Part shown: positions 25,456 through 54,988 of the stretch, piece by piece
Position numbering within the stretch: position 1 is the first letter of the stretch
How the letters are laid out: each line of letters begins with the position of its first letter
Source: Meghimatium bilineatum
Taxonomy: Eukaryota > Mollusca > Gastropoda > Stylommatophora > Philomycidae
Direction of reading: 5' to 3'
NCBI GenBank assembly: GCA_034231615.1
Contig: CM067298.1
Span: 66,793,591-66,857,590 of the forward strand
DNA length: 64,000 nucleotides
Translations under genes and position numbers: made by a program
Notes under the pieces: generated by a model
Told to the model about the DNA's origin: nothing
Database searches by the model: none
Seen by the model: the letters and a program-made list of their open reading frames with translations, nothing else

Positions 25456-25766
25456 CTACAAGTGACCCAATATTATTTTCAAAGTCAGTGGAGATGGATC
25501 CACATATCTTACATTGTGAATCAAATCCACATCTGACATTTGTGACTCTACATCCCCTTCATGTTTCTCTTTAATGTGACGTATCAAAGATGATGGGCGT
25601 GTGTAAGTTTGTAAGCATGTCAGGCACTTGTAACAAGGCACTAAAGTTTCATGTTTCTCTTGCCAGTGCCGACGGTACTTGCGTCCAATGTATGTGTTGC
25701 AATCCTTAACAGGGCAATAGTTACCTGGCTTCCACAAAGGACAGTACATATCCCAACTTCTGAGAC
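25456..25766 (-). CDS. alternative terminal exon C: two-finger C2H2 module
   Basis: Exon begins right after an excellent acceptor (ATTCTTCTTGTCTTCAG) and the frame needs one base from an upstream exon (phase 1). It encodes about 103 residues: W-K-P-G-N-Y, finger 1 C-X4-C-X10-H-X4-H (CPVKDC ... HWQEKH), finger 2 C-X2-C-X12-H-X4-H (YKCLTC ... HIKEKH), then a tail NVRYVDPSPLTLKIILGHL and a stop. Same layout and phase as exons A and B. The likely product is a nuclear DNA-binding protein whose common N-terminus is encoded elsewhere. I do not recognise the gene. Finger 1 has a shorter spacer than in A and B. 25,767-26,194 is probably intron. Confidence 0.8.
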
Positions 25767-26194
25767 CTGAAGACAAGAAGAATATGAAGTGATTCATCCA
25801 ATGTACTGAAGACCTATATAAAAGATCTTCTTATACACAGATTATAGATGCAAACAATAGAGTGCATACCTCTATTCATATTACACTTTTCATGCCTACC
25901 GCAACATAAATACAAATTCTACAATTGTTTAAAATGATATTGATAACAAAGGATTAAAATATGCATTAAAAAAATACAAGCTATCCATTTTGTGTATACA
26001 TTTTTGGTGAAGTGAGAGATCCAAATCAATGTCACAAAAATATTTAACTAATGAGTAAATATGTTGCACCAAAAAATATATTTTGTCAGAACAGATATTG
26101 AAATATACATCCACGCAAATTGAAATATACATCCACTCAAATGTATACATGCAGTCCCTGTGCCCAAAAGGGGAGCAAAGAATAGCAACCGTAT

Positions 26195-26400
26195 GATGTT
26201 CCACGCGAGAAGCATCGAAGGGGGTTTTAGTAGTAGAGTAACTGTCCTAGGCCATTGGTCAATGTGATAAAAAAAACCATGATAAAGTCTGATGCCAAAG
26301 ATGAAGATATAGTAGCAAAGTTGTAAACCACGATGTAGCACATTCTATTCTCTGGACTACACCTTGGACTACATCCAGCAAGTTGAAGACAAACGCAGCA
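26195..26400 (-). repeat. unclassified repeat, inverted relative of 27,302 and 60,632 repeats
   Basis: On the minus strand it reads GGATGTAGTCC ... GTCCAGAGAATAGAA ... CCAATGGCCTAGGACAG, similar to the plus-strand repeats at 27,302-27,405 and 60,632-60,735. Similarity is moderate. A nearby stretch (GGAGCAAAGAATAG, about 26,170-26,185) also recurs at 54,005-54,020. Confidence 0.4.
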
Positions 26401-26929
26401 GACAAAACTTTTAAACCTACATTGTACTTACTGTTTCAAAAGACATTGAAACTTACTAAACACAATAAAGTAATTCAGCTTAATCCACTCCCTCCCCCTC
26501 CCCACAAAGCAGGAAATTTAATTGTTATCTTCCACGTGTGACCTAAATGGGTTTCCATAGATCTCCTGAAGAAAATTATATTATTCATTGAAGACAATAC
26601 TGGTATATGATTTCTTGTCACATATCAGTCCGTGACAAATTTGTGTAGTATTGGTAAGTAAATTATTGTTTTGAACTAACAATATCTGTTCTGTTACACT
26701 TATTTCAAGATTAAAGATAAACAGTGTACAATTTATTAACAGAGTGCTCTGATGACATAATGAAAGATATATTCGCAACAGATCACTCTCATTAAACAGT
26801 AACCCACTCTACGAAAATACCATTAGTGTGATATACCCCCCCAGCTCGAGAATAGTATCACTTACTAACCCAAAACATAGAGAATGGACCGGCATCAGGA
26901 GAGATGATGGTGCAAGAACTTGTTGCATT
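26401..26929. other. no recognisable gene
   Basis: Nothing supported between the two flanking repeats. Confidence 0.4.
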
Positions 26930-27180
26930 TAAAACCACAAGACAAACTAATTTACTCAGATGGCTCAGTCAATAGAGAAAAGAGTTAGAGAAATTGTCTG
27001 CCTACTCCACCGCAACAGTGAGCAGGAAAATGAAATAGAAGTGTTGGTTGATGACTGACATATCAACTCACATAGTCATGCTCTCAGACTTGCCAAAAAA
27101 AAATGTGTAACATAGGAAGGTGTTTGTTCAGAAAATAATGGATGATATTACTAAACATATATGCTAAACCTGATATACTA
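26930..27180 (+). pseudogene. possible RNase H fragment of a LINE
   Basis: The plus strand contains LIYSDGSVNREKS at about 26,950, like the T/S-D-G-S-x-x core of RNase H domains, followed in another frame by a THIVMLSDLPKKN block that could be the second Asp strand. Weak, multiple shifts. Confidence 0.35.
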
Positions 27181-27301
27181 AACCTACTAAACAATATTTT
27201 TATATTATTATTTCAAAAGATAATGACACAGATTACACTATATTTAATTAGTTTAATATTTTTTAATTTGTTCTAAAACACCCATAAATATCTCTCTTAT
27301 A

Positions 27302-27405
27302 GCAGTACAAAGGTATTCTAGATTTCCCCCAGGATGTAGTCTAGAGAATGGAAATGCACTGTGTCGCTGTTTTATTTGCGCTAATGGTCCAATAAATCTG
27401 ACTTT
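27302..27405 (+). repeat. unclassified coding-like repeat
   Basis: About 100 bases match 60,632-60,735 on the same strand. In one frame both read R-F-P-x-G-C-S-x-E-N-G-N-A-L-x-R-x-F-I-C-A-N-G. A more diverged copy is at 31,320-31,420. Role unknown. Confidence 0.55.
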
Positions 27406-27517
27406 GGCATTGGTAACCATTACGTTCAGCTTTTTTACCACTTCCATTGAGCTGTGCTTAACCATAAGATGGATATCTTTCAATATAGTCCTGGAGGCGA
27501 CTAATACAGTATTGTGG

Positions 27518-27775
27518 AAACGAACCCTTATTGGCAAGCAGCAAGAGCATAAAACAAGAAAATGGAAACAGCAAGATATAAAGAAAGACCACAAGAAGGT
27601 GGGGGGAAGGAGCTACCAACATTCTGTGATCATAACATTACTGCACATCAATCAACCAAAATGCCATAGCCCAAAAACCAATCATCATTCAATCCCACAA
27701 CACGTTACAGCAAAAGCAGAGAAAGACAATAGATGGATAGGTAGATTTATGGTGGATGTCTGAAACAAAATCGCT
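27518..27775 (+). pseudogene. family S LINE, 3' end
   Basis: Aligns with 59,465-59,672: AACCCTTATTGGC, the AAATGGAAACAGCAAGATA block, GTTACCAACATTCTG-like sequence, a CCAATCATCATTCAATCC block and GCAGAGAAAGACAATAG at the end. Open frame interrupted. 27,776-29,029 holds nothing recognisable. Confidence 0.7.
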
Positions 27776-29029
27776 AGTATAGTAAGCAAATCATACAAGA
27801 GAACTAGTTCTCATACATACACACCGGTCACCAATCTCAAATCTAACCATCATCACCTATATTTGACCTTTTTGCCGATATCTTGCTTTGAACTTGCTAT
27901 AACCGCAGATGCCCACGAGAATGGTTTGAAAATGAATTAGAGATTATGTTTTTCCAAATACCTAATTAAAACGCTTTTTTCCAATTATTATAAATAAACT
28001 CCACACATAATATGAGGTTTCATGTTAACTACAGTTGATAGTTATTTAGGCACCACTAAAGCAATACTTGTACCACAACCAAGTTAATGTGAGTTAGGAC
28101 TATTCAACTGTTTTTCTAGCCCATTTATTAAGACTCATTGCAGTCATTGAAACAAATTTAACCTTCCCTTCATCATTAATGTAAAAAAACATATTCTCAC
28201 CGGATCACTTCAAATTATGTTGTAAACCAATCTGCCATAAAATTAAAGTACCTGCACCATGTAGCTAATAAGACTGCTTACTAGAAGAACAATATTTTCA
28301 CATTTAAAACTCATTTTTTATAATTTTTAGCATATTTAATGTGTCATGCAAACAGAGCAAGAATAGTACCACTTGAACATTTTGCCACACATTATGTTAC
28401 AGTGTCATGAGATACTAAGTGTGCTATAACAAAATCAATAACATAATTTCATGGAACTCTTCTGTGCAAGTGTAGCGAAAATATTATTATGTAGAATCTG
28501 TTTATGCAGTGATATATTGCTTTTACCAGGTAAATGCATTAACAGTATGTCATGGTTTACATAATTTTGGAGTAATGTGTTCTCAATTTACACCTCAGAA
28601 AACAAGATTTTTGACTGTATATGTATCATGGCTCATTTAATCACATAAAGATTCAGGTGTCCAAATATTGAGCAAATGAAAAATAAAATCATGTATCTAG
28701 AATGAAACATTACTCGTAAACAATGGTGATGATATCTCAGTGACAAAAAGAGGCATATCTCCCTCCTACCGTGATCCACCACTAACAGAGGTTATTAAAA
28801 TATTGTATCTATGTGTAGAATAAGAGCAGAAATTAGATGTGTACTACTAATAGTACTAGCACAGTGGATCCAAACCTTTTTCATGTTGCAATTCTATTTT
28901 TTAGAAGCACAGTGACCTGAAAATTACATCTTTTAAGAAGCTATATTTTTCCAGTGGCAACAAATGGTTGTGAGATGTCCAACATATGGGCAATGACATC
29001 CTCAATTGAAAATAAATATAGGCATCAAT
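27776..29029. other. no recognisable gene (likely intron)
   Basis: AT-rich, no domains. If exons A-C belong to one gene, this is part of the interval between alternative exons B and C. Confidence 0.45.
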
Positions 29030-29365
29030 AAATGCCTAAAATAAATATTCTAGAAAGGTCCTAAGAATATCATGCACAGAAAAGACGAACTAACGCAGAT
29101 GTCCGCAAATACCTAAACATAGAAGACCTCTTCAAAACTATTACAAAACGCAAGCTAACATATTTTGGACATATAAAAAGACAATGATTTATAAAGATTA
29201 ATCATGGAGGGAAAAATACCTGAAAATAGAACAACAGGCAGACGAAGGCTAATATGGACATAGGATATTGAATAACTTCTGAACATGACACTGGAAGATG
29301 CTGGGTGACTTGCACAGAACAAAGAGAGTGGCAGTAAAGACAATATTCTGTAAAGGATACATTAC
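29030..29365 (+). pseudogene. family R LINE, 3' part
   Basis: Plus strand: KVLRIS-type block near 29,060, a YFGHIKR-like remnant (ATATTTTGGACATATAAAAA) at 29,159, EGKxPxNRTTGRRR-like block at 29,210, and the W-x-D-I-x-x-N block. Matches 49,380-49,680 in order with several shifts. Confidence 0.65.
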
Positions 29366-30059
29366 ATAGATGAATGTGACCCGCAACTCAATCATGCGAA
29401 AATGATTGTTTAAAAAAATATAAGTGGCAGTTTTACATTGAAAAATACAGTGTCAACTTTATTAAAAAAATTAAGGTTGGGACAAACCTAATACGAAAAA
29501 AGCCATAAATACATACAATAAAAAATACTACACTACTGCAGTCTCCCAGTCACACAATAATGTAAAACGGGCTTTATAATAAGGTTAAAATAAATCATAA
29601 TTAAAATAGATAAATATATAATTACCACATAGAAAATAGATTGTTCAGTAAAATACACCATAACTCAATATATAATTGTCAGCATAAAATATGTTTCTTG
29701 TTTTGGTTTCAAATGAAGAAGTGTTGAAAAATGCACTCTCATGAAGATATGTAGAAGCAAAGGATATTAAGCTTGGATGAATATTCCACACAAAACATTA
29801 TTGTTAGTGTACTGTTTAGCCAGTAATTCAACAAAAAATCTTTCGTGACCCCAAAGGGGTAATGAAAACCCATAAGTTTGGAACATGTGTACTAGCAAAC
29901 CTGTAACTGATCCGATTGACCCAAATGATGCTATTGAAGGAACCCACATCAGTGATCAAAGGACAATATATTTGATGCTATAAATTCTAAAAACTATGTT
30001 ACTTGTGTTTAGGAGATATTGTAAGTTACCTGGATTATACAAATACATCACACTGTAAG
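29366..30059. other. no recognisable gene
   Basis: Nothing supported; downstream (minus strand) of exon B. An AATAAA on the minus strand exists at about 29,458-29,463 but is 800 bases from the stop codon. Confidence 0.4.
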
Positions 30060-30215
30060 GTTGATAGCAATTATATTAAACAAGCAAACATATATTACAA
30101 ATACCTGCCACTACTAATGATAAAATTAAATGATTAAATGATGATAAAAACAGCTATAATAAAAGAAATAAGAATGAAAACAGTTGACGTTTCGATCTTA
30201 GACTAAAATAATAAT
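30060..30215 (+). repeat. repeat family G, short copy
   Basis: Shares AAATACCTGCCACTACTAATG-type and TATAATAAAA...GTTGACGTTTCGATCTTA sequence with 31,510-31,650 and the reverse of 39,010-39,150. Family G is longer in those places. Confidence 0.45.
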
Positions 30216-30273
30216 GTAACAAATCTGAGATGTAAATTGTATAGAATCATAGTTAGAACACTAGGTACTACTC

Positions 30274-30641
30274 TTAAACTTCCATCCTGAGAACTGATTG
30301 CTCTTTATTTCTAAATAATACAGCTTCCAGTGTTAAAGGACTTGGGTCTTCAAATTCTCGGTTGTGTTGGAAATCTATTTCCCCAATACAATTTAAAAAT
30401 TCCCCATCCGCATGTTTTTTTCTGAAATGCATAAATAAGTTAGTCTTGCGTTTGCTAGAATATTGACACATTGAGCAGTGATATTTAGGAACTATTTTCT
30501 CATGCTTCTCCGTCCAGTGTTCCCGCAACCTTGTGGAGGTCGGAATCTTCCTAGCACTGCATCCTCGCACTGGACAACCTAGACCAGCCATCCACAAAGA
30601 AGAAGAGTTGCTCATATGCATTGTCTTGCCTGTGTTATCCC
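30274..30641 (-). CDS. alternative terminal exon B: two-finger C2H2 module
   Basis: Begins after the acceptor CTTGTGTCTACAG, again in phase 1. Encodes about 122 residues: a Ser-rich lead, W-M-A-G-L-G, finger 1 C-X4-C-X13-H-X4-H (CPVRGC ... HWTEKH), finger 2 C-X2-C-X12-H-X4-H (YHCSMC ... HFRKKH), then CIGEIDFQHNREFEDPSPL followed by T-L and a basic/acidic end. Aligns with exons A and C from the Trp to the PLTL motif. The longer C-terminal extension is unique to B. The acceptor pyrimidine tract is weaker than those of A and C. 30,642-31,319 is presumed intron without other features. Confidence 0.8.
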
Positions 30642-31319
30642 CTGTAGACACAAGTTTGTATGACATAAAATGTACTGTATAAAATGTACTGTATATGTTG
30701 AACATACATACTGTGAATACAGAGATTTTCATATTAGTATTTTCTGTAAAAATTCACGTTAAAAATGTCCAAATACATTTTATTGTTGAAACATACAAAA
30801 CTTATTTCGTACATTCAATGGTGCATACTGAATCTATGGGCCTGATGTCTAGCCTGAATTAATTTTGATGGTGCAATGTGCAGATTAAGAATATATAAAA
30901 GATTTCAGAAATAAAATACCAACTGCAAGTAAATAACAAGACTATGATGAAAAGTTTTACACAAGAATAGTAAACCAAACTACCTTTACTGAGTACATGA
31001 AAAAAATATAATCACAAATACTATTAACTCTGTAACATTAAGTTTTGGTTGTTTTCTGCAGACATCTTTCTTTCAAAGAATGACATGCAAATGTCTTTAT
31101 CTCACACTGGTTGTATGGTCAAAACGATTAATTTCCGTGAGGAAATCTCCATGAATGGCTCACAGAAATGCATTCCCAAACAACAACCAAAGTCGTGCAA
31201 AATACCTATTTATGTTAAAATGCGCTAATTCTGTAAAACGTCTCTAATTTTTGTTTTGTTAATGTTTTTTAGCTTTCATTCTCAAACTCCTGCTGGATTG
31301 GAGCATTATAGTAGGACAA

Positions 31320-31420
31320 TAACACTACTAATTTCAAGCAGAATGTAATCCAGGGAACTGATATGCAATGTGTTGTCTATTTGCAGCATTTTGTCATTTT
31401 ATTCTGATTACAACATATCA
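31320..31420 (+). repeat. diverged copy of the 27,302/60,632 repeat
   Basis: CTAATTTCAAGCAGAATGTA followed by ATCCAGGGAACTGATATGCA aligns with the repeat at 60,632 with several gaps. Low similarity, so uncertain. Confidence 0.35.
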
Positions 31421-31504
31421 GAACTTCTGCAGGTTTAGTTACTTATTTGAAACTTGAGTAGAGATATAAATTGGATTTTCTGTACTTACGAAAAAGCAAG
31501 AAGA

Positions 31505-32420
31505 CTAATAAAAAAGATACAGGGAATAAGTAAATATGTGTTACAAATACCTACAACTATGAATAAAAATATAATAAAACCAACTATAATAAAATATTAA
31601 GGACAAAAATGGTTGATGTTTCAATTTATGATCATTGCCTGAACATAAACAAATTGGTAGTGTATCCTATTCAAGACATAGCCATCAACCTTTAATTTTT
31701 TGGCTGTTATGATTTTTTAGGCAATATAAATAGGTTCAGTATTTTTCCATTGTTTTCTGAATGGTCTGAATGCACAATTGCCTGTGGTGGGATTCAAACC
31801 CAGTACCTTGGCAGTCACAGACCTGCTCTGTACTGCGCAGCCAAAGAGCTGGACAAACATATAATAATTAGAAAACGAATAATACAGAAAAGGAAATAAA
31901 TATTAATTTTAAAATATCTTTTTAACAAGTAAATAAATAGTCTGTGTAATGTCCTGGCAAAGAATGGAACGATCATGATATATTGCACACAATTTGTTAA
32001 ATATGTTCTTCAATCATGAAGAAATTGTGCACTATAGAGAAATCTAGAGGACTAAGACAAGGAACCAAGATAATATTTAACCATAGACACAAGAGAAACA
32101 CACATTATAGAATAGCGCACCATGACTGCCATATAAGCAAGATTGAGTTAACAGACGGGGAAATAGTCAACACAGCAGATACACTACCGTAAATATAGAC
32201 CAAAACTACATCCACATCAAATGCACAAGACTGAAACATCAACAACTATGCCATAAACACAGGTCCAAGGAAATAGCGGTACCAAAAATGAAAGACCAAG
32301 ACATGAATAAACTGCACACACAAGAATTAACAAATAGACGGAGACAACATCTACATTACAGATAGAGCAGAGATAATAAAGAGTCTATAACACAAATACA
32401 ACAAAACACAAACATATGCA
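31505..32420 (+). repeat. repeat family G, long copy split by a SINE
   Basis: Aligns over about 700 bases with the reverse complement of 38,520-39,150. Landmarks: GTTGATGTTTCAAT, TAAATAAATAGTCT, TATATTGCACACAATTTGTT, GACAAGGAACCA, GCACCATGACTG. A SINE copy (31,652-31,862) sits in the middle. The coding potential is poor; class unknown. Confidence 0.65.
31652..31862 (-). repeat. tRNA-derived SINE, copy 2
   Basis: Reverse complement shows a tRNA-like head with a B box (GGGTTTGAATCCC at about 31,790-31,802, matching GGTTCGANTCC poorly but clearly by alignment) and a tail block (GAAAACAATGG ... TTTATATTGCC). Matches the better preserved SINE at 40,613-40,829 over its entire length. Confidence 0.75.
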
Positions 32421-32504
32421 CACACAAATATACATTTGTAAACATACATATCTACATACACAATACACACACATGTATACAACTATTGTCTTTCTCCAGG
32501 TGAA

Positions 32505-33215
32505 TGATGGTTTATATTATCCCACTTGCCGCTAAGTATAGGAGTGGGAAGCCTCAGTTTTCCTTTCAAGGATAGAAGTGTCACCTTGGTTGCGTTGACA
32601 ATATTTGTTCAAGGTTATCTTGATGTTTTCTATCCATGGTTTTCTTGGTTTACCTTTGACTTTATGTCAGGATATTCTTTAGTTATATGCTATTATTGAT
32701 ATTTGGTTTAGCATCATTCTCATACAGTGACAGAACTATTTTACTTGCTGTCTTTCTATATGTTCAATACATGATATTATACCTGCTCTTTTCCTATTTT
32801 CTTTATTTCATATTTTATCTAGTTTAGTAAACATTGCAGCTTTTCTCAGACACTTAATTTCACATATAACAATTTTTCTTTGCTGTGAGACAGTTAGAGA
32901 CCATGTCTGACATTGATAGCAGAGTATTGGTATAAAAATTGTAGATATTATCTGTCATTTGATTTTCATCTTGATCTTTGGATGAAAAAGTAATGGTGAA
33001 AATTGGTAAATTGTGTTTGCTTTCTGACATCATTTTTCTATTTCTCAGTCGTATTTCATTTTCAGAAAAAATCCTGCCTAGATATTTAAATTCTTTGGCT
33101 TGTTTCACTTTGGTGTTGTCTATTGTTACATTCATTGGTGTTGAAGACTTGCTGTTTTTCATAACTTCTGTTTTTTTGTATGTTAATTTTCATGTTGTAC
33201 TTCTTAAATGCTAAT
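32505..33215 (-). pseudogene. family S LINE, RT C-terminal part
   Basis: Minus strand: TIDNTKVKQAKEFKYLGRIF at about 33,120, an IPILCYQCQTWSLT block at 32,930, AGIISCIEHIERQQVK at 32,780, and KGKPRKPWIENIKITLN at 32,640. Same order as the family S copies at 41,460 and 58,985. Several frameshifts. 32,421-32,504 is AC-rich low-complexity sequence. Confidence 0.75.
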
Positions 33216-33559
33216 ATCAATGTATACAATAAACAACAAAACACGTACTCGCATGCGTGACTGCACACACATGCAAATAAATATGCACATACAAAAACAG
33301 ACATACAAAACTACACACACAAACACGCATACAAAGAATGCTCGCTCTCATTCTCTCTCTCTCTCTCTCTCTTGTACTCTCTCTCTTTGAACTCTTTTGA
33401 GTCTGATGTGCACTTCTTCCCTTCCCCCAAATTAGTGGTGAGGCAATGGGTACTAAAATGGGCACAAGCTATACTTGTTTATTGATGAGTCATCTTGAAT
33501 ATTTTATATTTTCTAATTTTCAGGATCCTATTCCGATCTTTTACAATCTTTACATTGAT
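33216..33559. repeat. AC-rich and (CT)n low-complexity stretch, no gene
   Basis: ACAC-rich sequence at 33,255-33,325 followed by (CT)n at about 33,350-33,373. The R-E-R-E-type open frame on the minus strand is only a translation of the microsatellite. Confidence 0.7.
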
Positions 33560-33965
33560 GATGAATTTGGGAAAGATAGTGACGTGAGATGAAATGCTTG
33601 AGGAAAGCTGCCGGTCTCACCAGGCTTGATAGATTATGAAATGAATATATCAGGGAAGGAATAGGTATAATATCTTGTACAGATTACATAGAGAGAATAG
33701 ATCAAGTGATTTGGCCACATTATGAGAATGCGTCACGAAAAGTTGCCCGTACAAGCATATAACCAAATGAGATCAGGGTACAAAGCCAGAGGAAGACCAC
33801 GGAAAAGATGGATAGAAAACGTCAGGGACATCCTGAACAGACACGGTCATAGCACAGCCGAGGCCACACATCTGGCTTTAGAACGCAAGCTTGAGCTCCA
33901 ATCATCCCTACGCTTAACGGCAAGAGTGGATGACAATCCACGTGGGGAAAAGACAATAAATGGAT
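33560..33965 (+). pseudogene. family S LINE, 3' end
   Basis: Plus strand: MKCLRKAAGLTRLDRL at about 33,590, IGIISCTDYIER at 33,660, IxWFGHIMRMRHEKLPVQAY spanning a frameshift at 33,710, SGYKARGRPRKRWIENVRDI at 33,770 and ILNRHGHSTAEATHLALERK at 33,830, stop region near 33,930. A clean example of the family's C-terminus. Confidence 0.8.
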
Positions 33966-36399: not shown

Positions 36400-36438
36400 T
36401 TATGCTAGGCTGATATGGTGCAAATTGAACGGTAGCAT
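36400..36438. repeat. repeat family A, piece left of the J5 insertion
   Basis: TGATATGGTGCAAATTGAAC continues, after removal of the LINE insertion, into 38,412-38,500. The joined sequence aligns with 1,050-1,165. Its last 12 bases (GAACGGTAGCAT, 36,427-36,438) are the target-site duplication. 36,076-36,399 has nothing recognisable. Confidence 0.7.
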
Positions 36439-38399
36439 TACTAGCAGCATGGATAGACCTCAGGAAAGCATTTGATAAGGTCTGGAAAGAAGGGCTCCTA
36501 AAGAAATTGCGAAATTGCAGGGTTAGCTCAAGAATGTATAAATGGGTAAAAGCATACCTGCATAATAGAAGAGCCAGGGTACAATTAGATGGTCACAAGA
36601 GCAAGAAAGTTCTACTGCGTCATGGAGTCCCCCAGGGAGGAGTCCTGTCGCCCACACTTTTCTTGGTTTACATCAATGACCTAGTTGCTGAACTACCACA
36701 CGGGATCAAAGTGGCAATGTATGCTGACGACCTGGTGATCTGGTGCACAGAAGAACATGCGACAGTGGCCACTAAACAAATACAAAGAGCTATCGATGCC
36801 ATAACCTTATGGGCTAATAGATGGTGCGTCAGCATTAACACAGATAAGTGCAGCACTACACTTTTTACCCTCTCACCAAAACAAAAAGCCGGTCATATCA
36901 AAATAGATGGAGAGCTCTTGAAAGAAGACAAACAACCCACATACCTCGGAGTTACTTTTGATGATAAACTGACATGGAAGCAGCACATAAACAAAGCAAC
37001 AACAAAAGCCAGGAGGAAGTTAGCTATCCTGAGAAAACTAAGTGGAACCACATGGGGAGCCAGTGGGAATATACTCAGTAAAGTTTATCAGCAAGGCATA
37101 AGACCACACCTGGAATATGGTTCAGCTGCGTGGTGTCCTGCATCAAACACCACATTACAAGATCTAGATAAAGTGCAAAACCAGGCACTTAGAATAATGT
37201 TGGGAGCAATGAAATCAACACCCATAGCAGAGATGCAGAAAATGGGAAGAATGCAAACACTTGGCGAACGCAGAGACACAAAAGTACTAATTCAGGCAGA
37301 AAAGTTTCAGTGTATGACAAGTCATCCAATGAAGGAAAGATTCCAAAATCTAGCAATGGGACGACTGAAAAGAAGCAGCTTTATCCATCAAGCTAAACGA
37401 CTCCGCAGACAACTTATAGACCTACCTGAAGTTGACAGCCCCTTAAGGCCTGTACCAGAACAAACCCCGTGGAGTGAAAGACATGGAATGCCAATATATA
37501 TTCAGACCCATGTGAAAGGAATACTAAGCGTGGACGAACAGAACAGTGTGCAGCGAAGGACAGTCACCCTCAGTTTCCTGGATGAGGAATATCCACAAGA
37601 TATATGGGTCAGAGTATACACAGATGGGTCAGCACAGAATGCCGTGAGGAATGGAGGTGCAGGTGTATATATAGAATATCCACACAAGCCTAGAGATACA
37701 ATCAGAACACCGACAGGAAAATTCTGCAATAATTATGATGCAGAAATCCAGGCAATTAGTGTGGCAGCTAAAAAACTGCTGAACTCCAACTCTGACCTAC
37801 AGCCTGTGGTATTCCTGACAGATGCAAGGTCAGTGCTTCAAGCTCTCCAGTCTGAAAAACTAACAGACTTGAAAAAACTACTTAGCGAATTGTCTTACCA
37901 GTATAGGGTAACCATGCAGTGGATACCCTCTCACTGTGGAATACCAGGAAATGAAAAAGCAGACCAACTGGCTAAGGAAGGTGCTGCCGAAGACCAACCA
38001 GATATACCAATCACCTACCATCAGAAAAAACAGATGATCAAGTCAATAAGAAAGCCACAAACACCAACACAAGATGACTATCATATTATGAACAGACCAG
38101 AACAAGTTATAATTCTACGTCTCAGAACAGGACACAACCGACTCCGCAGTCACATGTATACAAAGTTCAAGATTGGCAACACGGCCATGTGTACATGTGG
38201 ACAGGCAGCACAGAGTGCCAAACATATACTTCAAGAGTGTTCTGAGCATGAAACGCTGAGGCAGACATATTGGCCAGAGGAAACAACACTGGAATCAAAA
38301 CTCTATGGGACACTGTATGAACTACAAAAGACAGTGAGTTTTATTAAGGAGACAGAATTACAGATATAGACATGTTTCAAGTGAACGAAAGAAGAAGAA
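36439..38399 (+). mobile_element. family J LINE copy J5: best preserved Jockey-like element
   Basis: 5'-truncated LINE inserted into repeat A. It is bracketed by a 12-bp duplication GAACGGTAGCAT (36,427-36,438 and 38,400-38,411) and ends in a (GAA)n tail after GTGAACGAAA. The reading frame is open from the truncation point to the stop at 38,367. Other copies of the family in the window (J3, J4, J6, J7, 47,076, 48,835) are all broken, so J5 is the youngest J insertion here. Confidence 0.95.
36507..38369 (+). CDS. reverse transcriptase-RNase H protein of LINE J5 (N-truncated)
   Basis: 620 codons from 36,507, but the frame is actually open from 36,439 (with RT motif A, DLRKAFDKVW, before 36,507), so the first codon (TTG) is internal, not a start. 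RT: HGVPQGGVLSPTLF at residues 39-52, motif C MYADDLVIW at 71-79. Thumb: TYLGVTFDDKLTWK, SGTTWGASG, IRPHLEYGSAAW. RNase H at about 370-490 with its acidic residues: YTDGSAQNA, YDAEIQAI, FLTDARSVLQAL, and HCGIPGNEKADQLA. A C-terminal CTCG...HILQEC knuckle follows near residue 561. It lacks the endonuclease, so the copy cannot move on its own. Jockey/I-type assignment rests on the RT-RNase H order. Confidence 0.93.
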   Translation: MRNCRVSSRMYKWVKAYLHNRRARVQLDGHKSKKVLLRHGVPQGGVLSPTLFLVYINDLVAELPHGIKVAMYADDLVIWCTEEHATVATKQIQRAIDAITLWANRWCVSINTDKCSTTLFTLSPKQKAGHIKIDGELLKEDKQPTYLGVTFDDKLTWKQHINKATTKARRKLAILRKLSGTTWGASGNILSKVYQQGIRPHLEYGSAAWCPASNTTLQDLDKVQNQALRIMLGAMKSTPIAEMQKMGRMQTLGERRDTKVLIQAEKFQCMTSHPMKERFQNLAMGRLKRSSFIHQAKRLRRQLIDLPEVDSPLRPVPEQTPWSERHGMPIYIQTHVKGILSVDEQNSVQRRTVTLSFLDEEYPQDIWVRVYTDGSAQNAVRNGGAGVYIEYPHKPRDTIRTPTGKFCNNYDAEIQAISVAAKKLLNSNSDLQPVVFLTDARSVLQALQSEKLTDLKKLLSELSYQYRVTMQWIPSHCGIPGNEKADQLAKEGAAEDQPDIPITYHQKKQMIKSIRKPQTPTQDDYHIMNRPEQVIILRLRTGHNRLRSHMYTKFKIGNTAMCTCGQAAQSAKHILQECSEHETLRQTYWPEETTLESKLYGTLYELQKTVSFIKETELQI

Positions 38400-46185: not shown

Positions 46186-46196
46186 ACTCTCCATGT

Positions 46197-46940
46197 GTTA
46201 CTATGTGCAGAAACACTCTTGTAGGAACCAGCACAATGAAATATTTGGGGTTGTTATTTGACAGGGGCCTGAGTTTCAAAGATCATGATGTTCAGATTAT
46301 TGTAAATGTAGGCAAGGTCATACAGCATTGAAAGATTCTGTGCTCTGAACAAGGATTGTGTTGCATGGAGGGGAACGATAATGCAGAGGTTACTATTTAT
46401 TCTTTATATATTTATGCATTTTGGAATTCTAAATGTGAAAGGTAGTAGACAGCAAAGAGCAATAACATGGACAAGGTGTGCAGAATATGTCATAAAAAGC
46501 ATGTCCATGTTGGAAGATGGTGATCTAGGTTAGGAGTACTGATAGGCGGACAGAATATAGCACCGTACTGCTGATCCGGTAGCTCATGCGGCTTATTACA
46601 AAGCTTGTTCCAAATATATCTGCATTACCTTTACTTTGGAGTTAACAAGACAAGCAGATTGTGCTGCATGGGCAACACATGGTCACTATATTTCAGCCAG
46701 GCATTGTGTTATGGAAATATATATTTCATATCTGACCGTAATGGGTCTCGGAATCAAATTACGAAATGGCATTACTCGTTTAAGTCCTTGTCAATTGGCG
46801 CCACAGGCTATCTCTTGAGGGTGGGAGACATTTTCGCTGTCATTGATCACTTAATGCCTACCTCAAACCAATAAGGTTTGCTTGTGATTTGCCACAGCCT
46901 ATACGCTTCAAGGGGTGCTAAAACAAAATAAAAAAGTCTG
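46197..46940 (+). pseudogene. family L LINE, RT thumb and C-terminal region (3' piece)
   Basis: TSTMKYLGLLFDRGLSFKDH at 46,225, then a ML-x-L-Y block at 46,380 and a weak C-terminal part to about 46,940. A plus-strand open frame (46,605-46,874) lies in this stretch but matches nothing certain. Contains a 32-bp string (46,350-46,381) identical to 48,009-48,040. Confidence 0.55.
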
Positions 46941-46959
46941 TAAATAAATTGTACTGCAC

Positions 46960-47075
46960 ATCATCATCTTAGTAGTTCTTTCTTCATATTAAGTGTTTTT
47001 AGCACCTATTTATTTGTTTTCTTCTCTTTCCATGAAGTTCTCCCTATTCTTCTATATACCCACATCTCAAAGGCA
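46960..47075 (-). pseudogene. family Y LINE, short fragment
   Basis: Reverse complement of 18,800-18,915 (FEMWVYRRIGRTSWKEKKTN block): CTTTCTTCATATTAAGTGTT and ATCTCAAAGGCATCAATTC are diagnostic. Confidence 0.7.
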
Positions 47076-47296
47076 TCAATTCTGTATACAAGCATACAAA
47101 CCCCCAAACACATACTCCAAGACTATCCAGAATACAAAGAACTGCACAGCAAGACACGGCTACAATGGACTGAACTGAGGCAAAAACTTTGGGGCAGCCA
47201 CTCTGATCTGAAGAAGACTGGGAGCTTCATCCTGGCGACTGGCCTGAATATCTAGTAAGACCAAAAGATTCCTGAATGCCAAAGAAGAAGAATAAA
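47076..47296 (+). pseudogene. family J LINE, 3' terminal fragment
   Basis: HILQDYPEYKELHSKTR at about 47,108 and LRQKLWGSHSDLKKT with FILATGLNI and a stop correspond to the C-terminal knuckle and end of the J5 protein (HILQECSEHETL ... FIKETELQI). Followed by a GAAGAAGAA tail, as in other J copies. Confidence 0.75.
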
Positions 47297-47353
47297 CTCT
47301 TGGTTTACCAGGCTTGTGGCCTCAGCACTCCCCTCTACAGCAGGAAACATGGG
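47297..47353 (+). pseudogene. P-like LINE fragment, piece left of a V insertion
   Basis: Encodes the start of a LYSRKTWETYMHHKK block that continues at 47,676 after removal of the family V insertion (related elements have LYASETWTTYKRHxKKLN). Confidence 0.6.
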
Positions 47354-47363
47354 AAACCTATAT

Positions 47364-47665
47364 ATTATGTTATGTTCCTCCAGGGCCATAGGCGGTGCAT
47401 AGGGCAGAAACCATAGCTTTCCATTTCTGTCTTTGTGTTGCCAGGTCTTTCAATTCCTGCGTGTTGTTTAGGTTTATTACACGCCTTCTCTATTAATGGT
47501 TCTCCGTAGAGTTACTCTAGGTCTCCCTCTTCTTCTTACTCCAGGTGACACCCAATATAGTGACTGCTGGGGAATTCTTAGGCTGAACATGGCCGATGTA
47601 AGTCCAATGCCTTTGTCTAATGAAGGAAGATATATAGGTTTGTTTGCTTTCCTCTCTTATAGTAT
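47364..47665 (-). mobile_element. family V LINE insertion, 5'-truncated and recent
   Basis: 302 bp on the minus strand, flanked by AAACCTATAT (47,354-47,363 and 47,666-47,675). It is nearly identical to 57,225-57,489, including GRPRxTLRRTINREG and WKAMVSALC..YGPGGT coding blocks and the ATAACATAA tail, with a small deletion after GCCATGTTC. The close match between two separate copies indicates recent activity. Confidence 0.9.
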
Positions 47666-47675
47666 AAACCTATAT

Positions 47676-48220
47676 GCATCATAAGAAATGACTAAACAGC
47701 TTTCACATTCTGTGCCTATGTAGAATTCTTCGAGTTAGGTGGCAAGACAATAACACTAACACTAAGTCGCTAAAACTAATGTATTGGAAAGAACAAGCAA
47801 TGTCACAGTTTTTATCAATGCTACCTGTGCTACTCAGTTGGCTGGGACACACTAGGAGGATCGAAGATGGCATAATACCAAAGCATCTACTTTATGGAGA
47901 ATTAGTCTGGAAAAGATTTCAGGGTGGACCTCTACGTCAGCACAAAGACGTATGCAAATGTAATATGCATGATACGGACATTGATACAGAATCATGGGAA
48001 CAGGATACCAAGGATTGTGTTGCATGGAGGGGAACGATAAGGAATAGCCTAAAGACAAAGGAGAAACTGACAGCAGATAGTTTAAGAACTGCAAGTCTTA
48101 AAAGACACACATAAACCCATGATGCTATAAGTTGGCCTGTGATTCCTTGTACATAATGTGGAAGACTCTTTGTGGCTCAGATTAGTCTTGTGAATCACAT
48201 CCATCAACATGGATCGTAGA
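47676..48220 (+). pseudogene. P-like LINE, RT C-terminal part and terminal finger
   Basis: LCRILRVRWQDNNTNTK at 47,718, then an open frame from 47,779 with LLSWLGHTRRIEDGIIPKHL, LYGELVWKRFQGGPLRQHKD, DTESWEQDTKDCVAWRGTI and RTASLKRHT. After the stop the terminal finger remnant reads C-T-x-C-GRLFVAQISLVNHIHQHGS at 48,148-48,218. Same architecture as family P but diverged in sequence. Confidence 0.8.
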
Positions 48221-48384
48221 TTATATTTCTTATAGCACAACAATAAAACCATTGTCTGTAATGACGGAAATATTGTCATTACACTACTATTCTGTATATG
48301 ACAGCTTTTTTTAACTATTGTTGAAATTTTAGACACCAATAATAAATGCAGTCACAGCATCAGTACAATGTGGATGATTGGCAT
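48221..48384. other. no recognisable feature
   Basis: Short non-coding gap between the LINE end and a SINE head. Confidence 0.4.
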
Positions 48385-48470
48385 TTGAAGCATGAGAAAA
48401 TTTGACCGAGTTATGTTTGTGAGACAGGATCACTAATCACTATACCACTGAGCTATATGGATATAGTTAT
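48385..48470 (-). repeat. tRNA-like SINE head
   Basis: Minus strand: ATATAGCTCAGTGGTATAGT (A box) and CTCGGTCAAATTTT (degenerate B box) about 50 bases later. It does not fold into a full tRNA and lacks a CCA-ready acceptor stem, so it is a tRNA-derived repeat rather than a tRNA gene. 48,471-48,834 has nothing recognisable. Confidence 0.6.
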
Positions 48471-48834
48471 ATTTGTCACATATTTTTATTAATTTCTTAC
48501 TTGTATGTCAATGGCTAAACTCTATATATGAGAATAACAAAATTAGAAACAACTACATGGCAGTTTCAAATAATGTGGCTTTTTAATTGGTGTTAATATA
48601 AAACAAACACAATAAGTTGCTTAACACTTTCACAAATAAAGCTAGACAAATGAAAATTAACTGCTTGAAGTCTCATATAAATATGAGCAAATAAAAGAGC
48701 CCTTAAGAGAATGTACATATTGTAGTAATAATTAACTGTAATAAACTGTAGAACAAACAACTTTATGAGAAAAAGTTTGTACATGAAATAATGAAAACTG
48801 ATCATAAACAGGATATTCTCTTCTCTCTCGCAGT

Positions 48835-49062
48835 TTAACGTGTCTACACTGCGAGTGTTGTTGGTTTTCTTGATAAATGCTGCAATATTTGAAAGCTTCT
48901 CAGTGTTCCCATACAGCTTTCTGTAGATATTTGTCTCTGTAGGATAGTGCTCCTCCCTTAATTGCTAATTGGTTGAGTGTAATGCAGACTTGCAGGACAT
49001 GTTCTACGGTTTGTGCTGTATGCCCACTGATGGAACCAGTCTTAATTTATTTAAGCAGCTGT
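48835..49062 (-). pseudogene. family J LINE, 3' terminal fragment
   Basis: Minus strand reads GSISGHTAQTVEHVLQVCIT, LAIKGGALSYRDKYLQKAVW and E-H, matching the end of J4 (NGGALAHRHSEKAVWEH at about 23,830). A family R insertion lies just inside its 5' side. Confidence 0.7.
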
Positions 49063-49076
49063 ATAAACAGGATACA

Positions 49077-49684
49077 ATACCGAGATAGAATGTGTGGATA
49101 ATTTTGAATACTTGGGAGCAAACATCAACGGTGCAGGAGACTGCATGGCAGAAATAAGGAAGAGATTGGCAATGGCATATTGCAAAATAACACGGCTGAA
49201 AAACATATGGAAAAACAACAAAATAGAAACGAAAGTGCTAATGTTACGAACTTTTATTTTTCCGGTTGCAACATACGGCTGTGAAACATGGACTCTAAGT
49301 AAAACAGCGGCAAAGAGGATCAACGCCTTCGAGCTGAAATGCTACAGGAAAATACTTAGAATATCATGGAAGGATAAAATCAGAAACTCAGATATTATAA
49401 ACACACTGAATATTCCAGAGTGTTGGTTACTAAACACAACAACAAAAAGAAAACTACACCTGTTTGGTCATATAAAGAGACATAACTGTTTAGAAAGACA
49501 AATAATGGAGGGAAGAGTACCTGGGAAGAGGAGAAGGGGCAGACCAAGAAGACGATGGACTGACGACATTAAAGATAACATGAATACATCGCTAGAAAAT
49601 GCAAGCCACATCGCCCAAGACAGAGAGAGGTTCAGAGAGTTCATTGGGAAGACAACGTTCTGGAAGGAATACGTCACATGACAC
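49077..49684 (+). mobile_element. family R LINE insertion, 5'-truncated, frame intact
   Basis: 608 bp flanked by a 14-bp duplication ATAAACAGGATACA (49,063-49,076 and 49,685-49,698). The frame is open over the whole insertion and encodes about 200 residues of the RT C-terminal region: VDNFEYLGANINGAGDCMAE, FIFPVATYGCETWTLSKT, FELKCYRKILRISWKD, KRKLHLFGHIKRHNCLERQI, VPGKRRRGRPRRRWTDDIKD, and a short end FWKEYVT with the stop at 49,679. Almost no 3' UTR or tail. No catalytic RT residues are included, so it is a dead-on-arrival copy, but a young one. Confidence 0.92.
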
Positions 49685-49837
49685 ATAAACAGGATACAGC
49701 ATAAACAATGACAGCAAGTGGTTAAATGTTTCTCAATGTCCATGATGCTACAAGTATATGGATTCATTCTAACAATTTCTGCAAGACACAATAATTTCTT
49801 TCCATCTGAGTTTGTTGTTGATGTGTGGGGACCTCTG

Positions 49838-49925
49838 AGGCTTAGTGGCTAAGCTATTTTACTTATGTTCACCCTCCGAGGCTTAGTGGCTAATAAATTT
49901 ACTTATGTTCACAAATTCGAGTGAT
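49838..49925 (+). repeat. tRNA-like SINE head with duplicated A-box segment
   Basis: GAGGCTTAGTGGCTAA followed by ACTTATGTTCAC occurs twice in tandem (49,841-49,871 and 49,876-49,909); the second is followed by AATTCGAG. The A-box-like TTAGTGGCTAA and B-box-like GTTCACAAATTCGAG suggest a tRNA-derived head. Confidence 0.5.
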
Positions 49926-49993
49926 TTTATGCTGGGAAATGACTCTTGTTTACTAGTGCATTTCTTTGCAGATCTCTGGGTATTATTGGTTCT

Positions 49994-50950
49994 TCTTTTG
50001 CATCCGCTCTTAAATAATCATCACAAATTTCGTTTGCTTTCTGCCAGGGAGTATGAGGTATGTTGCGCTACCATTAAATTTGCACCATGTAGGCCTAGTA
50101 CATCCTGTTTTGGCATGCTTTTAATTTGGCTGAGCTTCCCTAGCCTGTGACAGCCTTCCTGTATGTTGTCAGGTGATGGATATGTATTGACTCTACACTG
50201 TGACATTTTACCACTGTGCCCTTGGACTTTACAGGTTAAAACATGTCCCTGGGTGCTTCGAGAAGTCAGTAATCAGGGATTTAGACTTGGGTCAATTATG
50301 TTGATCTTGTACGAGGTATTTCGCTGCCAGTGAACTTGTCTTGCATAATTACAACCATTGTCCCTGTGTTCATCTTGTTTTGAACCTTTTCTCATCTTTG
50401 AGCATAGTTCCAGTTGGGCTTAGGTTCTTTGCCATCGTAGCTGAGGTATCATTCACAGACATTGAGTTTAACAGTGATTTAGTTAAGGTTTCCAAATAAC
50501 GTTTTCTCCACTCTATTTCCACATGGCACTGCCCTCTAGTGCTGTGATACCCTATTATTATACTGAATACGTTAGCCTTGATTCTCAATGTTCATCATGA
50601 CATCTTTCTCTATCAGGACATCGGAATTGTCTCCCCCCCCCCCCCCCCCCCAATGCATCTGGATTTTGGCTGACAGTTGGAATGTCTTGTGTCACTATGT
50701 GCTGACTGCTGCTGTATGTTTTGGCACAGAGGTTTAAGAGACATTTCTCATCTTTATTTGCAGTCAATTCTCATTCCATCTACAGTCTCCACATACACGG
50801 ACACAACCCCTAAAAGTGTTGGTCAGGAACACAGCACAAGCTGCTGTATTTGTTTCCAGGGTGACCCCACTGAGGTACTTTAAGGATCTTGGTTGTTTGC
50901 TAACCTTGCAATTTGCAAGCAATGAGGAACCCGCTGCACCCCTATTGCCG
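49994..50950. repeat. repeat family A, second long copy
   Basis: Reverse complement of 34,825-36,075 in order, with fewer internal subrepeats. A C19 homopolymer (50,633-50,651) interrupts it. In one frame (ATC-ACAAATTTCG onward) both this copy and 895-1,165 read CRPSTS and CPWTLQ, but stops are present. Confidence 0.7.
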
Positions 50951-51409
50951 CTTGAAGCTACAGAGTGCCAGTGTGCATGTGAAAAAAACCCAGAGTACAG
51001 TGAAGTCAATCGTCTATGCCTTTTCAGTAATGCTGATGAGCTTATGATTTCAATTAATTTTTCTTATTTGCTGTGTCCTAGTTTTTCTTTACAGATACCA
51101 TCTTTACCAAATAAAATATTTTTGAGTTTCTATATAAGATAAAAAAAAAGTACATGAATAGATGAAACATTCTAAATTTGTAGCCACAGGTGAACATGAA
51201 TCAAAGTACAATTATTATTATTTACTCATGACTTGAGTATACATCCAAATCATGTAAGATAACATAATCTACATGTTTTAAAAAAATAACATTTGAAATA
51301 TAACAGACCGCAGGAATGAGAAAATCACAATAATAATAGAAAAATGTAGGCGCCTGAAACATCACTTTATGCATGAGAAAACAAATTAACTAACACTAAA
51401 TTGATGGCA
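50951..51409. other. no recognisable gene
   Basis: Nothing supported. Confidence 0.45.
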
Positions 51410-52110
51410 AAGACCAAGCTTCGATCACATTAAAAAACTACAGATCAGAGCTACAAGTAATCTTAGAAGCATTAAAAGCACTGGAGGAACACAGACTCAA
51501 AGGAGAAAATATCATCTACTTGTGTGGCTGCAAATCATATCTTCAGACCATCCTAAAAAATGAAACTAAAGATCTAACAAAAACAAATGGAGAACTTTTA
51601 AATCGACTGATAACAACAACATGGTACTGCAGTGGATCCTTGCACAATGTGGAACTGCAGGAAATGAGGCAGTTAACAGTCTGGCAAAAGCACGTGCAGA
51701 AAAAAGAAACGATTTCATCACAGAATATCACTGACTGAAATAAAAACTCTCATTAAAAAAAAATACAAACATACATGGAGTCAGAGAACAGACATCAACT
51801 TTTCACAGGACCCCACCCTAAAGATGAACAGATCACAGCAAACTACAATTTTTAGGCTCAGTACAGGACACTGTAGGTTGCAAGCACATCACAAAATAAA
51901 GGCTGTTCAAACTGATCAATGTTCATGTCAAACTTCAGAACACATTCTGCAGACATGCCCACTCTTCGACGACTTGGGGGCTAAAATATGGCCCTAAAGA
52001 GACATCTGGAAGTGAAGCTGTGGGAGAACCATGAGGACCTCCTGCTGACTGAATTAATGGAGGAGGACCTCCTGCTGACTGAATTAATGGAGGCGGCCCT
52101 CCTGCCTGTA
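51410..52110 (+). pseudogene. LINE RNase H domain and C-terminal knuckle (different from J)
   Basis: Plus strand: NYRSELQVILEALKALEEHR at 51,439 (the RNase H Glu strand), LCGCKSYLQTIL at 51,520 (TDCKSAL in relatives, catalytic Asp lost), VLQWILAQCGTAGNEAVNSL at 51,620, then GHCRLQAHHKIKAVQTDQC, SEHILQTCPLFDDLGAKIW. Multiple frame changes. A 30-bp tandem duplication (52,033-52,107) lies at its end. Confidence 0.75.
52033..52107. repeat. 30-bp tandem repeat, 2.5 units
   Basis: GAGGACCTCCTGCTGACTGA plus ATTAATGGAG, two exact units and a partial third, inside the LINE remnant. Confidence 0.9.
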
Positions 52111-53239
52111 TAGACTTCTGAACATAGGAAACTAATAGTAGAAGAAGAATTAACAATCATAAATCATTAAACATTAAATCATAAGCTTTTCTTTGAGGGG
52201 CAAAAGAACAAAACTAGAGAACTTAATTATAGAGTAAGGGATTAAGCAGTGCTAGGTATAGAATAAAAAACTGGTATAACAGAAACCAACCAATACTGTC
52301 AAATAATGTTCATAATTTGGGATAACTTTATGCAAGTAAATAAACATACTTGAAATATTTTACAGTGAAATCGCATGCTTCTAGTGTCAGGTGTGTTCTA
52401 GATGGATAGGAATTTTAAGATATTGAAAAAAAAACATAAGATAATCTTAACATAAAAGATATAACTTCTAGAATTTTAAATAATTCCCACATGAGTCAAG
52501 CACTCAAAGACAGCAATGGCATCAAATAAAGACAAATATAAAATACATTCATGAAAATGACAAATGCAAGTCCATTTATAGTAGTTATAAATGATTATCC
52601 AACAATACAAAGATGTAATATTCTATTTATGTGAACTATATAAGGGGATACAATAATTTTGAGACTGAAAGAAATATAACATGAAATGTCCTATACCTCG
52701 GAAAAGAACACCAGACCCACTTAAACATTTAATGGAGAGAATAAAAAGTAAAAAAAAAAACTTCAAGCCTATCATGTACAGAACATACAGTAGCTACTAT
52801 TGTTGAATATTTAGATGCCATTAATAAATCAAATAGTACAATGTTAATGAGTGGTGTTCAAACCATAAGCTATTTCAACAAGTTGGGTGTGCAAGTTGAG
52901 CTGACTCCATAGGTGTCACCTAGTACAGATTTAAAATGCGGATTTATGAAAAAATAAGTTGACTGCTATGCTTTCCCCTCTCCCACAGAGCCGAAAAAGA
53001 AAATCAAACAAAAAGAAAGAATGTGGATAGTTCAGCAACATGATACATCTTCCAGTAAACAAGAGGAAACATGGGACTGGATGTGGATGAATATTTCTCA
53101 ATATATCAGCAGACATGATAATTCATGACAATATTGAATATCAAGTGCTAATTATAGTAATCTTTGAAATTTTACAAGACATTTAAACAAAGAAATATGA
53201 ACAACAAATTATTCACATACTATATTTTGTGTTCAGGTA
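52111..53239. other. no recognisable gene
   Basis: AT-rich; no domain, repeat or splice-bounded exon recognised. Confidence 0.45.
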
Positions 53240-53700
53240 TGTGATTAAAATTCTTCTCCAGTGCTTTTGCAAAAGGTGGAAAATAACAAAAGTATAGGAG
53301 AAGAAATTTAATTCACTTGATAATAAATGTTTTAGAAAACTCTTACATGTTTGGGAAGAATTTATGTTACACAAACAAGTACGAAAAGACACAAAACAGC
53401 AACATGTTTCTACAGCATTAAGACAACAATGATAATGTGGGACATGCACTTAGAATGTATGAAAAAAGACTGTCATTACAAGAATTAAAATAGATACCAA
53501 TTGGCTAAAGAAAAAGAGGAAGACTAAGAGAGATTCTTCGCAGAACAATCATCACAAAAGGCTATGACTATCAGTCTCAACAACTTACAATAATTACACA
53601 CAATAGCATCGCATCGTTCGAACTGAAGAGTGCTAATTTCTGCCTTATGCAGTGAGTGCATTTGTCTTTGAGGAAATATAGATAAACAGATAGAACTACA
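53240..53700 (+). pseudogene. family V LINE, 3' part
   Basis: EKKFNSLDNKCFRKLLHV at about 53,300, VRKDTKQQHVSTALRQQ at 53,375, a WTYIGHVL remnant at 53,430, K-K-R-K-T-K-R block at 53,508 and the family end near 53,650 with an ATAGAT tail. Several shifts. 53,701-54,034 holds nothing recognisable. Confidence 0.7.
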
Positions 53701-54034
53701 TATGAGATTATTCATATATATCAACGCTCACTTAAATTCCCATGTAAAACTATTTAATGCTTTCATAAACCTCAAATAGTTGATAAAATGCTAATCTCAT
53801 GAGGTATAGTGCCATAATGATGTGATATGTTTGGATCTTAGCATTTCAAAGTGATACCGATTTATTTCTAATGCAAGGTCAGTGCTTTGATTATGTCAAT
53901 ATGCCTGCTATAAGATAATTCTTTCTAAAGGAAACAAATATTAACAAGCAATTTTGAGTTAAACTGCTCAATCTACAAAAACATATGTTGTCAAGACTCA
54001 AAGGGAGCAAAGAATAGTAACATTGTGACTTTCA

Positions 54035-54260
54035 AGGCCTGTCATAATAATAATAATAAGACCCATAATCCGTCAGGGTTGTAGGGGTGCCACACATGAG
54101 ATATCAGCGCAAAATACCTCCAAACAATTCTATCCTCACAAACAATTCTATCCTCAGCCATTTGGAGGAGTATAGAAAAATCATGTCCTGACCATAACTT
54201 GATACTATCAATCCAGGATTTTCTTTGTCTGTCTATTCCCCTTCCACCCTTGAATGGTGG
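54035..54260 (-). pseudogene. LINE 3' end fragment with (TTA)n tail
   Basis: Minus strand: RQRKSWIDSIKLWSGHDF at about 54,225, LQMAEDRIVC/EDRIVWRYF (a 17-bp tandem duplication at 54,123-54,156 repeats EDRIV), HVWHPYNPDGLW and a (TTA)n microsatellite (54,043-54,058). The usual order of a LINE C-terminus. Confidence 0.65.
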
Positions 54261-54656
54261 ACATGTCTAAACTAAACAAGTTTATGCCGTTTACCACTGC
54301 CTTTCGTGTCATAAGAAGTGGCAAAGGAAGATTGGGCGTGGTATCATCTTTATCATCTTAAAGAAAGTCAAAGTAGTCAAATGTATCGGACAAAAGGACC
54401 CAAATATCATAATCAAGACATAAGCTACCATGCAACACATTTTCATGTCTCCTGCATACTCTATATATTAGTAGGAGTTTGATAAAAGATATACACATAA
54501 AAGAAGCTAAAAAAGATATATTAAGCTATAAATAGTTACAAAGGAGAACTAAAAAAAGTAAACAAGTGACACATTAAAACATAGATATTTAAAAGTATCT
54601 AACTTTAGCCCAAATTAAGAGAATATATTCAGATAGTTTTTATAGGTATGCTGAAA
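54261..54656. other. no recognisable gene; downstream flank of exon A
   Basis: Non-coding. May be 3' UTR of exon A, but no clear AATAAA on the minus strand was seen. Confidence 0.4.
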
Positions 54657-54988
54657 TTATCTCAATCCTAGGACAGAACGTAAGGTTAATGGGTAAGGGT
54701 TTATAAATTCAGAATTTGACTGGAACTCAACTTTCCCCAAACATTCTTTTGAATTGCCTCCATGTTTACAACGAATATGAGCAAATAAGTTTGACTTTCT
54801 TTTAAAAGAGACACCGGAGCATAATGCACAATGATAATAAGCAGTGATCTCTTCGTGTTTTTCTAGCCAATGAGAGCGCAAGTCTGATCTATTTCGACAA
54901 AACTTTGCCCCACATCCAAGAACGGGACATCCACTGCCAGGCTCCCATACTGCTGGAAACCAATGGACCTTATTGTCAAAGCTGTGAC
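54657..54988 (-). CDS. alternative terminal exon A: two-finger C2H2 module
   Basis: Starts after a strong acceptor (TTATTTTCCCTCTGCAG), phase 1 like exons B and C. Encodes about 110 residues: HSFDNKVHWFPAVWEPGSG, finger 1 C-X4-C-X13-H-X4-H (CPVLGC ... HWLEKH), finger 2 C-X2-C-X13-H-X4-H (YHCALC ... HIRCKH, one residue longer than usual), then CLGKVEFQSNSEFINPYPLT and L-x-x-V-L-G-L-R with a stop at 54,657. Frame runs from the acceptor without interruption. Same domain order as exons B and C, 24 kb downstream. The gene itself is not recognised; a nuclear DNA-binding factor is inferred. Confidence 0.82.

Follow-up and report, generated by a model that had tools for sequence, protein, structure and literature searches.

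Putative alternative zinc-finger terminal exons arrayed behind a constant front domain other than BTB in the mollusc Meghimatium bilineatum

We examined a window of 64,000 nucleotides from the mollusc Meghimatium bilineatum (C1:66793591-66857590, C1 and C2 being chromosomes 1 and 2 of this species) and conclude, with a probability that we put at roughly 85%, that three zinc-finger exons within it, termed modules A, B and C, serve as mutually exclusive last exons of a single transcription-factor gene of ~132 kb on the minus strand of C1. All three belong to the second of two module classes described below (class II). Module A (window positions 54657-54988, minus strand) encodes a first finger of the form C-X4-C-X13-H-X4-H, then a C2H2 finger and a PLTL tail, and ends in TAA. 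Module B (30274-30641, minus strand) also ends in TAA, and module C (25456-25766, minus strand), with a shortened first finger (X10), ends in TAG. The coordinates, usable acceptors, phase and stops reported for these exons in a preliminary description of this DNA hold, save that the exact start of B is unsure. Specifically, exon A follows the acceptor ttttccctctgcag|GTCACA and exon C follows ttcttgtcttcag|GTCTCA; for exon B the site as first read, tgtgtctacag|GGGATA, scores 0.9 and has phase-1 rivals at 30578 (1.1) and 30743 (1.0). All three exons are in phase 1, and joining would give a Gly codon if the donor leaves a G.

As previously described, A, B and C have in common a W-x-x-G motif, two fingers and a P-x-PLTL tail. 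Comparison by tblastn gave 50% identity between A and B (E 5e-28), 37% between A and C (E 2e-17) and 38% between B and C (E 2e-19), similarities far beyond chance by which the three exons are judged homologous. A profile built from them also found the tail of a fourth module, D, likewise of class II, which the preliminary description missed. Its 3' end (tail DPSPLTLDMIL plus stop; 63915-64000, minus strand) is cut by the window edge, the stop lying at 63915-63917 and the exon start at C1:66857833, 243 bases past that edge. An AlphaFold2 model of A from a three-row alignment was of middling confidence (mean predicted local distance difference test score 66), the second finger being its best part, with fairly confident block means of 83-88, and the first finger reaching 57-70. 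Modules A, B and C score under the Pfam gathering cut-off for zf-C2H2. A plus-strand match at 48373-48420 resembling 'W-x-x-KHEKI' contains a stop, with no second finger seen, and was set aside as chance or a relic.

The constant exons to which these modules would be joined lie outside the window, upstream of the modules, and were found by translated comparison of the C1 and C2 loci. Constant exon 1 (C1:66950839-66950050, minus strand), which encodes an N-terminal domain and a linker, starts with ATG and runs for 263 codons plus one base to a phase-1 end; constant exon 2 (C1:66946974-66946792, minus strand) is in phase 1 at both its start and its end. They are ~131 kb and ~127 kb from exon C, respectively. 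On C2 the copy of exon 1 starts from 72570171 (81% identity) and that of exon 2 occupies 72575907-72576086, and exon 2 matches just these two loci in the genome (two matches at E up to 10). The N-terminal domain recurs in a family of 14 members, described below, whose ATGs have a purine at -3 in 12 cases when the nearest ATG is taken; the other two members have an upstream in-frame ATG (MPELQ) with A at -3. We take the exon 1 ATG as the probable true start because family similarity, judged by eye, ends upstream of this Met, a further coding exon ahead of it being less likely.

The modules themselves are far more numerous than the window suggests. The preliminary description had proposed a genome-wide profile count of such cassettes, and an iterated profile search returned 22 module open reading frames (ORFs) on C1 and 15 on C2, with class II contributing seven on C1 and four on C2 and class I contributing 15 and 11. 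All 37 share the strand of their constant exons. Beyond module C no further module was found ahead of the next member of the N-terminal domain family, which begins outside the window at C1:66770686; on C2 the next member likewise begins past the last module found, at 72704898.

Scored with a generic acceptor matrix that was written from general knowledge, 34 of the 37 modules have their best acceptor in phase 1. Under nearly the same rule, 693 control ORFs had phases 1, 2 and 0 in 277, 227 and 189 cases (modules versus controls, P ~5e-11). A stricter scan, in which the upstream limit was a strict finger pair, again placed phase 1 best in 34 modules, here out of 36. This shared phase fits a common donor. 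The stop falls 4-45 codons past the last finger in the 36 modules that could be parsed, and a GTRAG between second finger and stop is present in one of 37 modules, namely C, the single-finger module being the one that could not be parsed. Poly(A)-like hexamers downstream of the modules were not counted as evidence, as by rough reckoning almost any kilobase of this AT-rich DNA would contain one. We consider it very unlikely that internal promoters drive the modules and that their transcripts are joined in trans to the constant exons, as reported for part of the insect gene lola. One study attributes the isoforms of lola to both cis- and trans-splicing (PMC1947980), and distance would favor such a route here, as the array exceeds 100 kb and exon C is 127 kb from exon 2; nevertheless the sequence does not require it, and ordinary cis-splicing suffices because none of the 37 modules is on the opposite strand from its constant exons.

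Comparison of the two chromosomes provides further evidence for a single gene. The Stylommatophora, the land snails and slugs, underwent a genome duplication according to PMC12328838, and we infer that the C1 and C2 loci are a pair derived from it. There are 11 reciprocal-best module pairs between the loci, and their order is the same save for one swap. The ohnologue of module A is at C2:72653171 (72% identity) and that of module B at C2:72658904 (59-60% identity). From exon 1 to the last module, the few-copy stretches conserved in the same orientation and order, as judged by eye, are exon 1, exon 2, the modules and one fragment (C1:66927723-66927902 versus C2:72597079) that resembles the tail of a long interspersed nuclear element (LINE) and has a better match on the opposite strand; the remaining conserved matches are out of order or in the other orientation. 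This bears on an alternative in which the locus is a tandem cluster of small, independent zinc-finger genes, each with a promoter and 5' exons of its own and with one module, or a small group of modules, as its last exon. Zinc-finger genes often occur in tandem clusters and the array is longer than 100 kb, but the conserved same-order stretches hold only the items just listed, exon 1 is the only conserved start-bearing exon in the compared stretch (C1 up to 66957000), and the shared phase 1 fits a common donor, so that separate genes appear unlikely.

Returning to a single gene with alternative ends, the module pairs also carry the mark of selection. The ratio of nonsynonymous to synonymous change (dN/dS, by the NG86 method) lies at 0.14-0.34 for those eight reciprocal-best pairs whose dS is finite, including 0.15 for module A, and 0.12 for exon 1, these ratios being rough because dS is high. 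In a tree of 44 rows, to which nine modules of a second gene pair had been added and from which the multi-finger and single-finger C1 modules had been dropped beforehand, eight cross-chromosome sister pairs were marked, and all eight run in the same order on C1 and C2. The array therefore predates the duplication, with at least these eight modules kept on both sides.

On the same data it is extremely improbable that the modules derive from a transposon-encoded finger, whether as dispersed or as dead copies, a refutation that the preliminary description had envisaged. The window is indeed full of LINE fragments, and a LINE-like ORF at 15097-15942 (minus strand) has a C2H2-like finger near its end. 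However, a search of the genome with module A (1,612,235,226 bases in 32 contigs) gave 11 matches at E <= 0.001, every one of them inside the two arrays (seven on the C1 minus strand and four on the C2 plus strand), no separate flank search having been made; furthermore, the modules have kept open frames, phase and order, and dN/dS is below 0.35 in eight of 11 pairs, these being all the finite ones. We thus reject a transposon origin on the basis that module A has no dispersed matches at this threshold across 1.6 Gb. For comparison, 1.61 Gb, 25 pseudo-chromosomes and seven unanchored scaffolds are given for the published assembly (PMC10770140). An arthropod host was likewise rejected, as the mollusc haemocyanin family PF14830 has 50 matches in this genome; PF00372 has none, although that search stayed empty in its controls as well.

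The proposal in the preliminary description that the three exons may belong to one gene as alternative ends is thus supported, from sequence, by constant exons with phase-1 donors, by the phase-1 best acceptors of 34 modules out of 37, by the order kept on C2 and by dN/dS below 0.35. Several observations weigh against it. Half of the C1 modules (11 of 22, C among them) and four of the 15 on C2 have no reciprocal partner, dS is not finite for three of the 11 pairs, including B, and a different set of three reciprocal pairs are not sisters in the tree. Exon 2 has a dN/dS of 0.53, an estimate that included a few codons beyond the donor, and its donor (CAG|GTTGGT) is off consensus at +3/+4, though kept in both copies. 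Three of the 37 best acceptors were phase 2 in the first scan. Two of these became phase 1 in the stricter scan, and C2:72619058 was phase 2 in both (2.6, versus 1.8 for an alternative in phase 1 located seven bases upstream); C1:66868449-66868820 turned phase 2 under the stricter scan because its earlier phase-1 site lies within its first finger. Exon C holds a donor-like AAT|GTAAGA ahead of its stop. Finally, the way in which the ORF list was built guarantees that every module ORF ends in a stop, such that only the nearness of the stop is evidence.

Analysis of the encoded fingers separates the modules into two classes. Class II is a distinct clade of 11 modules, monophyletic in the tree with support of 100/100, and is characterized by CP[VI]xxC...HWxxKH and a PLTL-type tail that is varied in several members. 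Its first-finger spacer is X13 in eight of 11 modules and X10, X12 or X17 in the rest. The X10 shortening that the preliminary description saw in exon C is real, but this spacer varies among modules, and the C-X4-C finger that it called unusual is ordinary among C2H2 fingers, finger 1 of Zif268, seen in a structure-match listing, being CPVESC. In most class I modules a C2H2 finger precedes a C2HC finger (22 of the 25 parsed, one of 26 being unparsed), with the second finger ending in Cys in these 22 across both loci. Overall, a spacing census that parsed 36 of 37 modules found paired C2H2/C2HC motifs with finger spacing. Pfam zf-C2H2 was matched at E <= 0.01 by 12 of the 13 class I members scanned. 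The Pfam scans of these 13 and of three class II modules returned mainly C2H2-type, other zinc-binding or weak unrelated families, and FLYWCH was absent among the matches listed (for class I, the best 25 of 32). Two odd class I modules of the C1 array, at C1:66918668-66919114 and C1:66918166-66918381 (both minus strand), stand out by their finger number, as one of them encodes more than two and the other just one, and phase 1 is the best acceptor phase in both.

Two LINEs in the window were also observed. At 36429-38369 (plus strand) there is a LINE-type reverse-transcriptase/RNase H-like frame of 646 amino acids, translated pieces of which match C2:72636774-72637482 at 76-100% identity. Several of these match at 94-100%, and this element may therefore have been active recently. 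At 15097-18475 (minus strand) a broken LINE has endonuclease-like and reverse-transcriptase-like frames, the last of which ends, by eye, in the C2H2-like finger CPNCPRTFTARIGLISHIRTH.

The N-terminal domain encoded by exon 1 spans ~75 residues and occurs at 14 places in the genome at E < 1e-10, seven on each of C1 and C2; a fifteenth match (E 0.76) was left out of the count. In a typed alignment the invariant positions are F9, I10, K15, L17, L20, C21, F27, G35, D42, D48, E53, K57, S67 and S69. The domain has no credible relative in Pfam (best E 0.005-0.07, to unrelated families) or in the PDB (E >= 0.8). BTB was absent from all 14 domains in a Pfam scan, and a genome search with Pfam BTB gave 80 matches (116 candidates were scored), all of them more than 3 Mb away from both loci. 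A BTB constant region was rejected on these grounds. Four genes with the N-terminal domain show mirrored order and orientation on the two chromosomes (C1:66950839, 66770686, 66578155 and 66554986; C2:72570171, 72704898, 72936610 and 72961548), as expected from the land-snail genome duplication. Other members show signs of a similar layout. A second gene pair (C1:39514043 and C2:96753275) has nine short two-finger exons in 20 kb, with phase 1 best in eight; short exons downstream of this pair were brought to light by a near-consensus class I search that gave 108 matches from the best 150 of 4572 candidates, most of the 108 being ordinary long zinc-finger genes. A third member, C2:72704898, has one short finger exon in 30 kb, in phase 1. 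Among the eight members with a usable exon 1 end, five have a phase-1 GTRAG donor near it, one has no such GTRAG, and in two the phase-1 candidates are all weaker and lie further inward. An [IV]K[EQ]E[YF] motif, seen by eye in eight of the 14 exon 1 linkers, resembles the SUMO-attachment consensus, psi-K-x-E.

We compared this locus with known genes that swap their ends. Drosophila lola (longitudinals lacking) is reported to join its constant 5' exons to any one of at least 20 alternative carboxy termini, the majority of which bear C2H2 or C2HC zinc fingers (PMC1947980). The present locus is similar in having 22 modules and in that most class I second fingers end in Cys. The lola constant region is a TTK-group BTB, which PMC11426971 reports from arthropods only, Mollusca being among the groups searched. 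In contrast, the constant domain here has no BTB match, its host is a mollusc and the N-terminal domain occurs 14 times. The locus is not lola, because no BTB was found and the TTK-type BTB is reported as arthropod-specific (PMC11426971). It does have the lola-type one-phase array of zinc-finger terminal exons with private stops (34 of 37 in phase 1), C having its donor-like site before the stop. The comparison with lola made in the preliminary description therefore stands for the exon logic and not for the constant domain. Like Drosophila mod(mdg4), which has common 5' exons and many alternative 3' exons, the locus combines common 5' exons with multiple candidate 3' ends; unlike mod(mdg4), where the constant region is BTB and the variable ends are mostly FLYWCH fingers, it has C2H2/C2HC pairs and no BTB match. 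It would work like lola or mod(mdg4) and is a member of neither. The BTB zinc-finger genes fruitless, tramtrack and broad share with it alternative two-finger ends with an H-X4-H first finger, but they have a BTB constant domain, which has no match here, and far fewer alternative ends. The structure 2drp, which we take to be that of tramtrack, was a weak match (E 0.14).

We propose that the pre-mRNA would join the donor of exon 2, or that of exon 1 in the same phase, to one module acceptor per transcript, and that the transcript would end after the chosen module exon. Every isoform would then have the N-terminal domain and a different DNA-binding end, mostly a finger pair. As a guess, the N-terminal domain mediates protein-protein contacts and would hold the proteins together. 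More broadly, and at somewhat less than even odds, a mollusc lineage may have invented a lola-like system without BTB, with seven genes before the duplication and fourteen now, in which a new N-terminal contact domain is combined with rows of swappable phase-1 finger exons and isoforms sharing the domain pair up to read composite DNA words.

To our knowledge, genes in which a common front is combined with many exchangeable DNA-binding ends are best known from arthropods, where they are tied to BTB. We found no mollusc or non-BTB equivalent in literature titles and the starts of abstracts, a coverage that takes in few subscription papers and does not show absence from print or annotation. The present analysis defines a domain family, with its invariant residues, that is not in Pfam. 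If a mollusc does combine lola-like exon logic with an unrelated domain, this architecture has either evolved repeatedly or predates its front domain. Since every array exists twice owing to the duplication in land snails and slugs, the two copies allow a direct reading of how individual isoform exons were gained, lost or selected. If transcripts confirm the proposed joining, one gene could yield ~20 proteins that read different DNA words.

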